64,000 bases of DNA from Amycolatopsis benzoatilytica AK 16/65. Lineage in GTDB: Bacteria; Actinomycetota; Actinomycetes; Mycobacteriales; Pseudonocardiaceae. Made by a program: the position numbers and the translations under genes. Each line of letters opens with the position of its first letter. The first letter of the stretch is position 1. The stretch lies in assembly GCF_000383915.1 (NCBI RefSeq), contig NZ_KB912942.1, positions 1,896,561 to 1,960,560 on the forward strand, read 5' to 3'. Below are positions 3,029-38,346 of the stretch, piece by piece. Below the pieces are notes generated by a model, which made no database searches, had not been told where the DNA came from, and saw only the letters and a program-made list of their open reading frames with translations.

Positions 3029-5758
<2,730 letters not shown>

Positions 5759-34319: not shown

Positions 34320-35762
34320 TCAGGAGCCGGCGACGATGCTGCCCATGGCACCGCGTTCGGCGTCGGCGAGCCGGTGCGTGATGACGGGGTAGGTGCCGGG
34401 CTGGGGGAGGGTCAGCTCCACGAAGCCGCCTTCTCCTGGTTGCAGGTCCAGTTCCTGGGCGGCGCCGTCGACGGCGTTCCCGGGCCGCAGTTGGTAGCCG
34501 CCTTCCTTGAAGACGGTGTCGAACTGGGCTCCGACGACGTGGAAAGCGCTGGGTTCGCTGGGGCCGGCGTCGAGTACCCACAGCCGGATGCGCGCTCCGG
34601 CGCGGACGTGGATCGGCGCGGAGCGGTACTGGTTGGCGTATCCGTTGAACACCACGAGATTCGGGTCCGCGGCGAGCAGCTGCGACATCGCCGGCACGCC
34701 GCCGCCCTGGCCGAGGTAGAACTCGGACTGCAGGAGCACCTCGGACGCCTCGGCGGGCGCCAGCGTGGGCGGGTCGATCACGACCGCGCCGTACATGCCC
34801 ATCGCCAGATGCTGGATCATCGGTGCGGTCGCACAGTGGTAGAGCCAGATTCCGGCGTGCTCGGCGCGGAAGGAGTAGGTCAGTTCGCCTCCCGGCGGGA
34901 TGGGCCGCATCGCGGCGTCGGGGCTGATCTGGCTGGCGTGGAAGTCGATGGAGTGCGGCATGTCGCTGCTGTTGATCACGCGTACGGTGAACAGGTCGCC
35001 GACGCGGCCGTGCAGCAACGGTCCGGGCACGGTGCCGTTATAGGTCCAGACCTGTTGGCGCACACCGGGTGCGACCTCGACGGTGGTCTGTTCGACGCGC
35101 AGGGTGAGGTTGTGTTCGGTGCCGCCGGGGGCCGGTCGCAGGGTCGGGTCGTAAGGCCGCCAGGTCGGTGGCGGGACCGCGTTCATGTCCATGCCGGCCA
35201 TGGCCGGGCCGGGCTGTTGGGCGATGGCCGAGGCAGCGGGGGCCGTGGTGGCGCGGATGGCGAGGGTCATGCCGGCTTGGCGGTGGCCGGGCATGGTGCA
35301 CCAAGCCTGTTCGTCCCGGGTGACGACGCCGAAGTCGACGGTTTCCTGCTGGCCCGGCGCCAACGTGCCGGTGCCGTGCCGGCCGTCCAGTTTCAGGTCG
35401 TGGCTCATCCGGCCGGCATTGCGCACGGTCAGCACCAGGTCCGTGCCCGGGGCCACGGTGATCGCCGCCGGGGTGACGGCGAACTCGGTCAAGCTCACTG
35501 CCACCGGCATGCTGGACGAGGCCGTCGGCACCGCGTCGTCGTGATGCTGTCCGGGCCAGGCTCCGGCACTCACCAAGGAGAGCACCGCCAGCACGGCCGC
35601 GACGCTGGTGACGGCCAGGAGTTCGTGGCCAGCCAGCCGCCGGGCCGGCTTGGCAGGCTCGGCGGTGTCGGCCGGGCCCGTCCGGCGCCGCGTCGCCAGG
35701 GCCGCGATCACGAGCGCCGGGAACGAGCCGAACCCGGCCAGCACCAACGCCCAGGCCAGCAT
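34320..35762 (-). CDS. Copper nitrite reductase/multicopper oxidase half (480 aa)
   Basis: Starts at an ATG inside the duplicated segment (MLAWALVLAGFG). After two hydrophobic helices comes an extra cupredoxin domain (SHDLKLDG ... WCTMPGHRQAGM), then a NirK-like pair: HSIDFHAS (type-1 and type-2 His), WLYHCATAP (type-2 His, type-1 Cys), QHLAMGMYG (His, Met) and AFHVVGAQFD (type-2 His). All usual copper ligands of nitrite reductase are present, so this half could still be active if translated alone. It would reduce nitrite to NO outside the membrane. Translation may depend on internal start or on reversal of the duplication. Confidence 0.8.
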   Translation of the reverse strand: MLAWALVLAGFGSFPALVIAALATRRRTGPADTAEPAKPARRLAGHELLAVTSVAAVLAVLSLVSAGAWPGQHHDDAVPTASSSMPVAVSLTEFAVTPAAITVAPGTDLVLTVRNAGRMSHDLKLDGRHGTGTLAPGQQETVDFGVVTRDEQAWCTMPGHRQAGMTLAIRATTAPAASAIAQQPGPAMAGMDMNAVPPPTWRPYDPTLRPAPGGTEHNLTLRVEQTTVEVAPGVRQQVWTYNGTVPGPLLHGRVGDLFTVRVINSSDMPHSIDFHASQISPDAAMRPIPPGGELTYSFRAEHAGIWLYHCATAPMIQHLAMGMYGAVVIDPPTLAPAEASEVLLQSEFYLGQGGGVPAMSQLLAADPNLVVFNGYANQYRSAPIHVRAGARIRLWVLDAGPSEPSAFHVVGAQFDTVFKEGGYQLRPGNAVDGAAQELDLQPGEGGFVELTLPQPGTYPVITHRLADAERGAMGSIVAGS

Positions 35763-37032
35763 TCGCAGAGCGCCGGAGGGCCGCGATCACGAGCGCCGGG
35801 AACGAGCCGAACCCGGCCAGCACCAACGCCCAGGCCAGCATTCGCAGAGCGCCGGCGGCGGGCAGGACGAGCAAGAGCACGCCAAGGTTGCCCAGGACGG
35901 CCCGGGGCAGCCAGGCGTACTCCAGGACCTCGGTCAATCGCCGATTGCCCGTCGGCCCGCCGCCCACGGTCACCGGGATGAGGAAGACGAGCGCGCCGGT
36001 CAGGATCTGGGCGACGGTGCCGATGCCGAGCACCGGGACCAGGAGACGGCCGAGCAGGTCGTCCGCGGCGGAACTGCCCATGGCGAGGCCGGCGATATCG
36101 ATAGCCAGCGCGGTGAGCAGCCAGCCGTTGCCGGCCAGCAGTGCCACCGGCGCGGCTGTGCGTGGCGCCTTGGCCCGCATCTCGCGGATCGCGGGGACCA
36201 ACGCGTAGGCGACACCCGCGCTATAGCCGACCATGCCTGCGACGGCCAGCCAATGTGCTGCGGGCCGCCATCCGGTGAGGACCGCACCGGTCACCGCAAT
36301 CGCGAGACCGGTCACGGTGACCGCCAGGACCTGCCGGGCAGTCCGCGGCGCCGTGTCGGGCATGCGCGTGCGCAGCACGGCCGGCCACAGCATGAACAGC
36401 GTGCCGATGACCACCAGGCCCAGCCAGCCCAGCAGGTTCAGGTGCGCATGCGCCAGGCGCACCGCCTGCTGCCACTCTGCGGGGCGGATCGCGCCGTCGC
36501 CGAGCAGCCCGCCTAGCGTGCCGCCGATGATCAAGCAGAATCCGGCGGCGACGTAGTACCGGACGACGACCCGCAGCCGCCCGGAGAGGTTGGCGGCCCG
36601 CGTCATGGCGATCAGCGCGGCGGTGTGCGCGAGCACGGCGAGGACCACCAGCGCGGCTCCGGCGGTCACGAGCCAGAGCAGCCGAGTGGTCATCCCGGTC
36701 AGCACAGCGAGCGCGCCGGCGTTGAACGCGGCCAGGCGGGCGTTGGCCGGCCATTCGGGGCCGGGCCGGGCATGCAGGAGAGCTTGGGCGAAGTGCCGGC
36801 TGTAGACCAGTACGGCGTTGCTGGCCGCACCGAGCACCAGCAGATGCAGCGCCAGCCATTCCGGCATGGCCAGCACGCCGTGCGCGATCACCGCGCCGCC
36901 GGCGGCGATCAGGTAGCCGGCGACCAGACTCGCGGCCAGGGCGTGGCGACGCCGGCGCGGCGACGCGCCCTGGCGTTCGGTCAGCGGCAGCCGCCGGTAC
37001 TGCGGCGGGTGCTCTGGTTCGTGGTCGATCAC
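35038..37032 (-). CDS. Membrane half of nitrite reductase fusion, with out-of-frame tail
   Basis: From GTG 37030-37032 the first ~415 residues hold about 12 transmembrane helices with AHAHLNLLGWLGLVVIGTLFMLWP, a motif common in membrane domains fused to or accompanying nitrite/NO reductase genes. After ALRMLAWALVLAGFG (first duplicate copy) the frame shifts and ~245 residues of meaningless Arg/Gly/Ala-rich sequence follow before a stop at 35038. The N-terminal 415 residues are genuine; the tail is a product of the duplication. The start is 121 bp from the divergent CopD-like gene. Confidence 0.7.
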   Translation of the reverse strand: MIDHEPEHPPQYRRLPLTERQGASPRRRRHALAASLVAGYLIAAGGAVIAHGVLAMPEWLALHLLVLGAASNAVLVYSRHFAQALLHARPGPEWPANARLAAFNAGALAVLTGMTTRLLWLVTAGAALVVLAVLAHTAALIAMTRAANLSGRLRVVVRYYVAAGFCLIIGGTLGGLLGDGAIRPAEWQQAVRLAHAHLNLLGWLGLVVIGTLFMLWPAVLRTRMPDTAPRTARQVLAVTVTGLAIAVTGAVLTGWRPAAHWLAVAGMVGYSAGVAYALVPAIREMRAKAPRTAAPVALLAGNGWLLTALAIDIAGLAMGSSAADDLLGRLLVPVLGIGTVAQILTGALVFLIPVTVGGGPTGNRRLTEVLEYAWLPRAVLGNLGVLLLVLPAAGALRMLAWALVLAGFGSFPALVIAALRRSANAGLGVGAGRVRLVPGARDRGPGDAAPDGPGRHRRACQAGPAAGWPRTPGRHQRRGRAGGALLGECRSLARTASRRRGADGLVQHAGGSELDRVRRHPGGDHRGPGHGPGADRAQCRPDEPRPETGRPARHRHVGAGPAGNRRLRRRHPGRTGLVHHARPPPSRHDPRHPRHHGPRCLGHRPTARPGHGRHGHERGPATDLAALRPDPATGPRRHRTQPHPARRTDHRRGRTRCAPTGLDL
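35698..35855 (-). repeat. Perfect 79-bp tandem duplication
   Basis: Unit 1 is 35698-35776 and unit 2 is 35777-35855, identical base for base over 79 bp (starts AGGGCCGCGATCACGAGC, ends GCAGAGCGCCGG). 79 is not a multiple of 3, so it shifts the reading frame. Either a recent slippage event or an assembly artefact. Confidence 0.95.
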
Positions 37033-37044
37033 GGCCGTCCCGTT

Positions 37045-37067
37045 TTTACTACAAGATTCGTATAAAC
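37045..37067. promoter_or_regulatory. AT-rich operator candidate between nirK-like and CopD-like genes
   Basis: TTTACTAC-AAGATTC-GTATAAAC is an imperfect inverted repeat in an otherwise G+C-rich divergent promoter region. It shares TTTACTA/TAGTAAA or TTTATAC/TAAA half-sites with 37901-37924 and 40888-40921. Confidence 0.45.
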
Positions 37068-37153
37068 AAGAGGAGAGTACGGTGCGGCTGGCGGGTGCGG
37101 TAGGGCCGGAGGTCCTCCGCAGCCGGACTGCCGGAAGGGGAGGGTCGACTGTC

Positions 37154-37555
37154 ATGCTCGCGGTGTCCTGGGACACGGTCCGGCTGTTCCTGCACGTGCT
37201 GGCCGCCACTGTCTGGGTCGGCGGGCAGCTGACCCTCGCCGCACTGGTCCCCGTGCTGCGCGGGCTCGGCGCCCAGGTGCCCGCGGCGGCCGCGCGGCGG
37301 TTCAACCAGGTCGCCTGGCCGGCGTTCGCGGTGCTGGTGGCGACCGGCGGGTGGAACATCCTGGCCGAGGCGGACAAAGACACCGGGAGTTACCGGACCA
37401 CGCTGATCGTCAAGCTCGCGGTCGTCGCCCTCTCCGGGATTACCGCGTTTCTGCACAGCCGCGCCCGCAGTAGCGCCGGGCTGGCCGTGTTCGGCGCGCT
37501 CACCGGCGTGAGCGCGCTGGCGGCGTTGTTCGTCGGGGTGCTGCTGGCCGGCTGA
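37154..37555 (+). CDS. Small CopD-like membrane protein (133 aa)
   Basis: Four helices: WDTVRLFLHVLAATVWVGGQLTLAAL, VAWPAFAVLVATGGWNIL, LIVKLAVVALSGITAFLHS, and a C-terminal helix. This matches the half-size CopD-domain proteins (HVLAATVWVGG). It is divergent from the nitrite reductase gene and probably helps copper supply to it. The ATG at 37154 has GGGGAGGG upstream. The frame could start earlier at 37082 but would lose the strong ribosome-binding site. Confidence 0.8.
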   Translation: MLAVSWDTVRLFLHVLAATVWVGGQLTLAALVPVLRGLGAQVPAAAARRFNQVAWPAFAVLVATGGWNILAEADKDTGSYRTTLIVKLAVVALSGITAFLHSRARSSAGLAVFGALTGVSALAALFVGVLLAG

Positions 37556-37707: not shown

Positions 37708-37766
37708 AAGTCCGTGAAGGGGTCCTTGAGGGAATCCGATTCCCTCAAGGACCCCTTCACGGACTT
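37708..37766. repeat. Intergenic hairpin family, copy E (perfect 28-bp arms)
   Basis: AAGTCCGTGAAGGGGTCC and onward pairs exactly with the right arm ending GGACCCCTTCACGGACTT. Relative to copy A two positions changed on the left and two matching positions on the right, so pairing is kept by compensatory changes. Confidence 0.9.
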
Positions 37767-37900
37767 GGAGAACCGGCCGGTCGGGCGCCGGGATCGTCCG
37801 GTGCCGCCGAGTTCGGCACCGGATTCCGGCGATCGTCTCGCATGGACCGCCGCCTTGGTTGGGTGGACACTGGGGATGGGAGCCGGGTCACCGCGGGCAG

Positions 37901-37924
37901 TTTATACAATTCAGTTTGGATAAA
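37901..37924. promoter_or_regulatory. AT-rich operator candidate before DUF488/TehA-like genes
   Basis: TTTATACAA and TTGGATAAA form an imperfect inverted repeat with a 6-nt centre, 48 bp before the DUF488 start. Shares the GTTTATAC half with the site at 37045-37067. Confidence 0.5.
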
Positions 37925-37971
37925 ATGGCGAGGGCAGGAGGTTGCCTGCGGGCGCGGGGAAGGAGAGTGCC

Positions 37972-38346
37972 GTGAATACGCACATCGCTTGTCGCAGAAT
38001 TTATGACCAGCCAGCCCGGTCGGACGGGGTGCGGGTGCTGGTGGACCGCGTGTGGCCGCGAGGGATGCGCAAGGAGAACGCGCACCTGGACGAGTGGCTG
38101 CGCGAGGTGGCGCCGTCCACCGAGCTGCGCCATTGGTACGGGCATGACCCCGCGCGGTTCGCCGAGTTCCGCCGCCGCTACCTGGCCGAGCTCGGCGAGT
38201 CCCCGCGACGAGAGGCCGCCCGGCACCTTCGCCTGGTCGCCCGTCAACACGACCTGACGTTGCTGACCGCGACGCGGGATCTCGAGCACAGCCAGGCGGC
38301 CGTCCTCGTCGAGTGGCTGGCCCCGGACTCCGGTCGGACGGCCTGA
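37972..38346 (+). CDS. DUF488 family protein
   Basis: 124 residues: RRIYDQPARSDGVRVLVDRVWPRGMRKENAHLDEWLREVAPSTELRHWYGHDPARFAEFRRRY covers the family signature (given here only in outline), with LTLLTATRDLEHSQA at the end. DUF488 proteins are small cytoplasmic proteins of unknown reaction often near nitrite, nitric-oxide or redox genes. GTG start with AAGGAGA 6 nt upstream. 24 bp from the TehA-like gene, so co-transcribed with it. Confidence 0.85.
   Translation: MNTHIACRRIYDQPARSDGVRVLVDRVWPRGMRKENAHLDEWLREVAPSTELRHWYGHDPARFAEFRRRYLAELGESPRREAARHLRLVARQHDLTLLTATRDLEHSQAAVLVEWLAPDSGRTA

Follow-up and report, generated by a model that had tools for sequence, protein, structure and literature searches.

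We analysed a window of 64,000 nucleotides from Amycolatopsis benzoatilytica AK 16/65 (assembly GCF_000383915.1, contig NZ_KB912942.1, positions 1,896,561 to 1,960,560 of the forward strand), and all positions given here are counted from its first letter unless another locus is named. The subject is a gene on its minus strand that resembles the membrane-fused copper nitrite reductases (NirK) and is divided over two reading frames by a tandem duplication of 79 bp. The parts of the gene are as follows.

34320..37032, minus strand: the whole nirK-type gene (membrane half, cupredoxin and NirK), read in two frames; relatives have it in one frame in 53 of 64 loci
35777..35855, minus strand: the 79-bp unit nearer the gene start, in the frame of the membrane half; judged by eye, it encodes the last hydrophobic helix of that half
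35698..35776, minus strand: the 79-bp unit nearer the gene end, in the frame of the catalytic half
35038..37032, minus strand: the 5' frame, 664 codons, of which about 424 are native membrane-half residues, followed by about 240 out-of-frame residues
34320..35762, minus strand: the 3' frame, an open reading frame (ORF) of 480 amino acids (aa) from the ATG in the second unit, with two hydrophobic stretches (by eye), cupredoxin and NirK
35331..35543, minus strand: N-terminal cupredoxin domain PF13473, residues 74-144 of the 480-aa ORF, 28.1 bits against a cut-off of 27
34338..35117, minus strand: NirK catalytic part, residues 216-475 of the 480-aa ORF, aligned with 3wkq at E 5.3e-45

Based on analysis with TRF, the array at 35698-35855 has a period of 79, 2.0 copies and 100% matches, and the two units were found to be identical letter by letter, with 0 additional matching bases at either border. 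The sequence-only reading, which had placed identical 79-bp units at 35698-35776 and 35777-35855 and had held that they shift the frame, is borne out by both results. A search for the unit's initial 37 bases, in which up to 3 mismatches were allowed, returned two places in the window, which are the two units themselves, where 0 were expected by chance. The gene spans 2713 bases, and removal of 79 leaves 2634, which corresponds to 878 codons including the stop, or 877 aa and a stop. Exactly 878 codons had been predicted for the gene with one unit deleted, and our arithmetic agrees with this when the stop is counted. The single-unit product of 877 aa compares with 879 aa in the relative from Amycolatopsis alkalitolerans (P0003). 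As the gene stands, the 5' frame runs from the GTG at 37032 through the first unit to a stop at 35038-35040, and the 3' frame runs from the ATG at 35762 to its stop at 34320; an ATG within the duplicated unit had also been predicted, and it is this one, in the second unit, that opens the 480-aa frame. The 5' and 3' frames are 83% and 80% identical, respectively, to the intact relative. Relative to intact orthologues the frame is disrupted, as is characteristic of a frameshift pseudogene.

The 480-aa part consists of an N-terminal cupredoxin domain and multicopper-oxidase domains of the NirK type. Its best solved relatives were NirK entries, led by 3wkq (E 5.3e-45), which we take to be the NirK of Geobacillus, and the cupredoxin and NirK parts were covered jointly by 2dv6 (residues 101-476) and 6tfd (residues 102-476), both of them presumably three-domain NirK from Hyphomicrobium. 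The motifs of the type 1 and type 2 (T1/T2) copper sites, PHSIDFH, LYHCATAPMIQHLAMGM, SAFHVVG and THRLADAERGA, align with those of 3wkq, as expected of a NirK. It had been claimed earlier that the catalytic half keeps all copper ligands; this was confirmed at the level of the motifs, and the assignment of single residues to single ligands is one that we assume from A. faecalis numbering. The membrane half gave a weak match to COX1 (PF00115, 24.6 bits, below the cut-off of 34.8), and no solved relative of it was found by sequence, the one match in a search up to an E-value of 1 being at E 0.35. This half has conserved histidines (LALHLL, AHAHLNLLGWLG). The NCBIfam equivalog TIGR02376 was missed by the window part (156.7 bits against a cut-off of 296.3). 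It does not separate this family, because the intact relatives P0003 (147.1 bits) and P0215 (153.7 bits) likewise score below the cut-off. All the parts of a membrane-fused enzyme are present at the locus, and they lie in two frames instead of one. No second NirK was found in the genome at E <= 0.001, all matches being to this gene and its own duplicated end, and no plasmid relative was matched in the near-match search. The genome has 8,704,271 bp and a G+C content of 70.2% over a sample of 121 stretches, the window included, which together amount to 2.464 Mb or 28% of the genome.

The architecture is not new. In the part of PMC4770552 available to us, actinobacterial NirK is described as carrying an N-terminal transmembrane extension of 400 aa and an additional cupredoxin, with a length of about 900 aa in Propionibacterium acnes, and is placed in clade II. 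The gene in the window has the same order of parts, with a membrane half of about 420 aa followed by cupredoxin and NirK; the clade II label follows the placing of Actinobacteria in that paper, as far as its available text goes, and not a tree of our own. Unlike the fused NirK described there, the window copy is in two frames owing to the 79-bp duplication. On the basis of the PDB matches and that available text, we regard the window gene as a broken homologue of the membrane-fused actinobacterial NirK rather than as an established member. The accessible text of PMC8756737 concerns mainly NirS in Chloroflexi.

The distribution of the gene was determined among related genomes. At E <= 1e-40 the fused gene was found in 6 of 80 genomes of the genus and the membrane half in 50 of 394 genomes of the class, and the cupredoxin-NirK part was found at E <= 1e-50 in 51 of the same 394, the window's own genome being included throughout. 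We read 64 membrane-half loci other than the window, namely 50 in 49 class genomes, 5 in congeners and 9 from named records, whose genomes may overlap with the others. One open frame continues through the catalytic half in 53 of the 64, which makes a fused frame the usual state and the window an exception. There was no catalytic half in the stretch read in ten loci, four of which have less than 1.5 kb of downstream sequence and in two of which (G205a, G214) the membrane half is interrupted by a stop. In the one remaining locus, of the congener G007, the frame is broken in the catalytic domain. Not part of this count are some fused-looking genes, namely that of G042, with one frame (L005), and long open frames, left unread, in G229, G295, G444 and at a second place in G159. 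For the protein search, 8000 candidates were scored, and a simple cut sorted the best 120 of 162 matches into 32 fused, 8 partial and 80 membrane-only proteins, a sorting that merges contig ends with true breaks and gives no count of broken genes. Included in the 80 are the window's own protein (P0002) and two with tails that look out of frame (P0036, P0046). The corresponding search with the cupredoxin-NirK part was limited to the best 120 of 1965 matches.

Two members of the same family resemble the window gene in having lost the continuous frame, G007 and P0004 (A. echigonensis, 718 aa), and both differ from it in the position of the break. The frame change of G007 is near residue 703 of P0003, in the catalytic domain, and P0004, which is known from its protein listing and not as DNA, ends in 44 unrelated aa beyond residue 668 of P0003, also in the catalytic domain. 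The G007 change (L099, about 7141) sits in a GC-rich stretch and is either a real change or a sequencing error. The unrelated end of P0004 (its residues 675-718) lies at the copper motif region, as from an insertion or rearrangement. The membrane half also occurs without a downstream nirK part, for example in the proteins P0050 and P0038 and at the loci L100, L101 and L104, and it may function independently of NirK, since this arrangement is seen in several genomes and many of the listed proteins. The role of the 400-residue membrane half in the intact enzyme is called unknown in the available part of PMC4770552, and what it does there is the wider, and better, question raised by this locus.

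Outside the duplication the gene looks sound. Of 242 residues without variation among 16 fused relatives, the window keeps 241 (101/101 and 140/141). No second lesion was found in the gene, and neither frame has a stop where it is matched to the relative; such an absence of further lesions together with visible constraint is typical of a recent frameshift pseudogene. Compared with A. alkalitolerans, the membrane half has 0.100 nonsynonymous (dN) and 0.441 synonymous (dS) changes per site, giving a ratio of 0.23, where two intact relatives give 0.25. For the catalytic half, dN is 0.099 and dS is 0.257, and with A. acididurans as the outgroup 35 amino-acid changes were specific to the window and 34 to A. 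alkalitolerans. There were 0 differences in 79 x 2 sites between the two units, which bounds their divergence at 1.9% per site or less (95% upper bound), to be compared with the dS of 0.257 and 0.441 that separates the two halves from A. alkalitolerans.

Three explanations had been offered from the sequence alone, a reversible off-switch by slippage, a fresh inactivation and an assembly artefact. Fresh inactivation was strengthened by the intact fused frame in 53 of 64 loci, the 241 of 242 retained residues and the identity of the units. The off-switch lost ground, with only two units here and no duplication of at least 37 bp inside the gene in any of the 53 intact loci, and the artefact was left as a rival by the runs of N in the assembly. 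We consider it rather probable that the locus represents a recent, ordinary inactivation of a nitrite reductase gene of known type, caused by one 79-bp tandem duplication. The gene, of the type that encodes membrane-integrated copper nitrite reductases linked to a cupredoxin, would have been sound until recently, with one unit in the ancestor of the strain, and would then have been hit by a single event. The event would have given the membrane half its final helix twice and, 79 not being a multiple of three, would have shifted all that follows by one base. The product would now be non-functional, consisting of a membrane half that ends in about 240 wrong residues, with the catalytic part untranslated or barely translated. 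Reversion by slippage or recombination would be expected at some low rate, as for any tandem duplication. If this is correct, a single step can cost an actinomycete its nitrite reductase and leave the remaining gene looking sound, and surveys of gene content may count a non-reducer as a nitrite reducer; if the assembly is in error, they may miss a real one.

The duplication itself would have arisen without microhomology. Exact microhomology at its borders was looked for and rejected (0 bases), and because the borders lack it, end joining after staggered breaks have been filled in, or template switching, fits better than slippage between short repeats. Two matches to Ku above the cut-off were found in the genome. 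A hairpin hotspot as the cause was also rejected, as the folding of the strand gave z = -1.40 and 17 of 200 shuffles were equally good.

Several observations weigh against a recent loss of function of this kind. In the membrane half, with the same outgroup, 28 amino-acid changes were specific to the window and 12 to A. alkalitolerans (p = 0.02), an excess that could mean an older relaxation and that somewhat opposes a very recent loss. The dN/dS ratio of the catalytic half (0.39) is slightly above the 0.33 found between two intact relatives. The bound on the age of the duplication is soft, since recombination could keep the units identical. With regard to translation, no Shine-Dalgarno match of at least 3 bases was detected before the ATG at 35762 or before the next three in-frame TTG or GTG codons in the unit, and this absence counts for little, given that a 3-base match (GGA) is all that precedes the true start at 37032. 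Further down, a GTG at 35063 is preceded by GAGGT at six bases; its product would begin at residue 234 of the 480 and would have neither the helix, nor the cupredoxin, nor the first part of NirK. Finally, the whole reading rests on one assembly of one strain, and the real chromosome could have a single unit.

In the last case, two overlapping pieces would have been joined with a 79-bp overlap left untrimmed, and the gene in the chromosome would be intact. We judge this to be unlikely, in a degree that still makes it the main rival to a recent loss of function. The repeat is perfect, has exactly two units and shares no bases at its borders, as an untrimmed overlap would give, and the remainder of the gene looks sound. 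The one-contig assembly does contain Ns, in 14 runs over the 2.464 Mb sampled, among them runs of 10 and 6 as well as single Ns; some of the runs could be masking added in the analysis, which is hardly so for the single Ns. A resequenced strain of Mycobacterium tuberculosis showed 28 structural differences, and for half of them an error in the older assembly was judged likely, according to the available part of PMC12817950. On the other side, the window is without any N, and the 79-bp pair is the longest perfect tandem duplication in the sampled sequence, in which no other exceeds 48 bp; the next are a 24-bp array counted as 48, and then 38 and 36 bp. Perfect duplications of such a size are thus rare here, which argues against a systematic assembly error and leaves room for an isolated one. 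Longer tandem duplications that fall just short of perfect identity include those of 168 bp at 98.8% (L163, about 17334) and 105 bp at 97.1% (L165, about 15175), and both lengths are multiples of three. Seven of the single Ns stand within 107 bases (L228, 2846-2952), where the consensus is unresolved.

We also considered whether the gene still works as two pieces, a membrane half and a catalytic half started from the ATG in the second unit, as the mention of an internal ATG in the sequence-only reading had implied. The halves do occur separately in nature, in the ten membrane-only loci and in stand-alone cupredoxin-NirK proteins such as P0215 of Pengzhenrongella frigida, and cupredoxin-NirK open frames of 461-498 aa were found at five places. 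The 480-aa ORF shows 54% identity to P0215 over 83%, and the hydrophobic stretches at its beginning could serve as an anchor; however, P0215 has its own start and a hydrophobic N-terminus, whereas the window ORF begins midway through the final helix of the membrane half. The upstream frame runs on for about 720 nucleotides beyond the ATG, to 35038, and hence there would be no coupling of termination and reinitiation. Together with the lack of a Shine-Dalgarno match before the ATG and the following TTG or GTG codons, this weakens the proposal of a separate catalytic half, even if a strong match is missing at the real start as well. The membrane half would in addition bear the 240 or so wrong residues. 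A natural two-gene form was rejected: the halves occur apart, but a separate catalytic gene within 2.5 kb downstream on the same strand was found in 0 of the 64 loci, the broken one of G007 excepted, in a test that covers the membrane-half loci and not the surroundings of stand-alone cupredoxin-NirK genes. Judged from these sequence features, expression of a working catalytic half is unlikely, and we hold function in two pieces to be improbable.

The remaining explanation is an evolved reversible switch, in which slippage between the 79-bp units toggles nitrite reduction in a subpopulation. Copy-number change of tandem units tens of bases long is possible in actinomycetes: as far as the available part of PMC12817950 goes, promoter tandem repeats of M. 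tuberculosis change their number at 10^-2 to 10^-3 per chromosome, and a 57-bp promoter duplication is reported as well. The array in the window is similar to these in its unit of tens of bases, its tandem arrangement and its few copies. The repeats described there are located in promoters and differ from strain to strain as well as inside a strain, whereas here there is one duplication in a coding sequence, with no variation observed, and the frequencies concern promoter repeats and not a coding frameshift of such a size. The gene is otherwise kept intact, and in one relative from a metagenome (P0021, 1037 aa) the same part contains a long, repetitive linker; that linker is in frame and shows only that in-frame growth of the linker is tolerated. 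Among the 53 intact fused loci, a tandem duplication of at least 37 bp at 90% or more was found inside the gene in none, and the two that were found, in loci L040 and L061, both lie outside it, so the relatives lack the repeat that would be expected at this site of a phase-variable locus. The array has two units only and lies in the coding frame. No conspecific with one unit turned up in a search from which the records nearest to the window's own may have been excluded. We found nothing that points to selection for switching, and the evolved switch has no support beyond the general revertibility of tandem duplications. Such a switch is very improbable in our view, and we give just as little credence to its specific form, bet-hedging between nitric oxide (NO) production and none, in which a one-unit subpopulation would make the fused enzyme and the rest the membrane half only.

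Additionally, the region upstream of the gene was compared with that of the relatives. It contains an inverted repeat and three neighbouring genes on the plus strand.

37042..37067, minus strand: inverted-repeat element GTTTATAC-N10-GTAAAAAC upstream of the nirK-type gene, found by eye
37082..37555, plus strand: divergent neighbour, a small CopD-like protein (PF05425, 27.3 bits, below the cut-off of 32.1)
37942..38346, plus strand: DUF488 protein, with a similar stretch near the gene in L038, L035 and L033
38371..40869, plus strand: ORF with a SLAC1/TDT anion-channel domain at residues 23-337

A look-alike of the element (GTTTCTAC...) was seen by eye before the gene in 4 of 7 relatives with upstream DNA, namely A. 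alkalitolerans, A. acididurans, S. anandii and A. rhizosphaerae, and a looser one in N. vaccinii, also by eye. From the look-alikes in the four relatives, the promoter region seems to have been kept too. A similar inverted repeat (GTTTATAC...GGATAAAA) lies at 37900-37925, before DUF488/SLAC1, and another before DUF488 in A. alkalitolerans (L038, near 3592-3616); a stricter form of the inverted-repeat pattern matched only the 37900 site within the window. The presence of similar repeats before both the nirK-type gene and DUF488/SLAC1 suggests that they are under one shared regulator. The CopD-like stretch is similar in four relatives (L038, L035, L032, L037). For the SLAC1 ORF, tblastx similarity to A. 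alkalitolerans and A. acididurans stops near 39.4-39.5 kb.

In A. alkalitolerans a DsbA-like ORF follows directly after the fused nirK (L038:7660-8400), and in the proteins P0078 and P0113 a DsbA-like part (PF01323) is fused to the NirK-type membrane half. These arrangements hint at a DsbA-like protein as a functional partner. Between the CopD-like gene and DUF488, positions 37710-37764 form a perfect palindrome whose 27-nt arms are separated by a single base (GTCCGTGAAGGGG...CCCCTTCACGGAC). Counted over both strands of the sampled 2.464 Mb, the outer 13 bases are present 7 times, the two copies in the palindrome among them, and the palindrome may therefore be an intergenic repeat that is dispersed in the genome.

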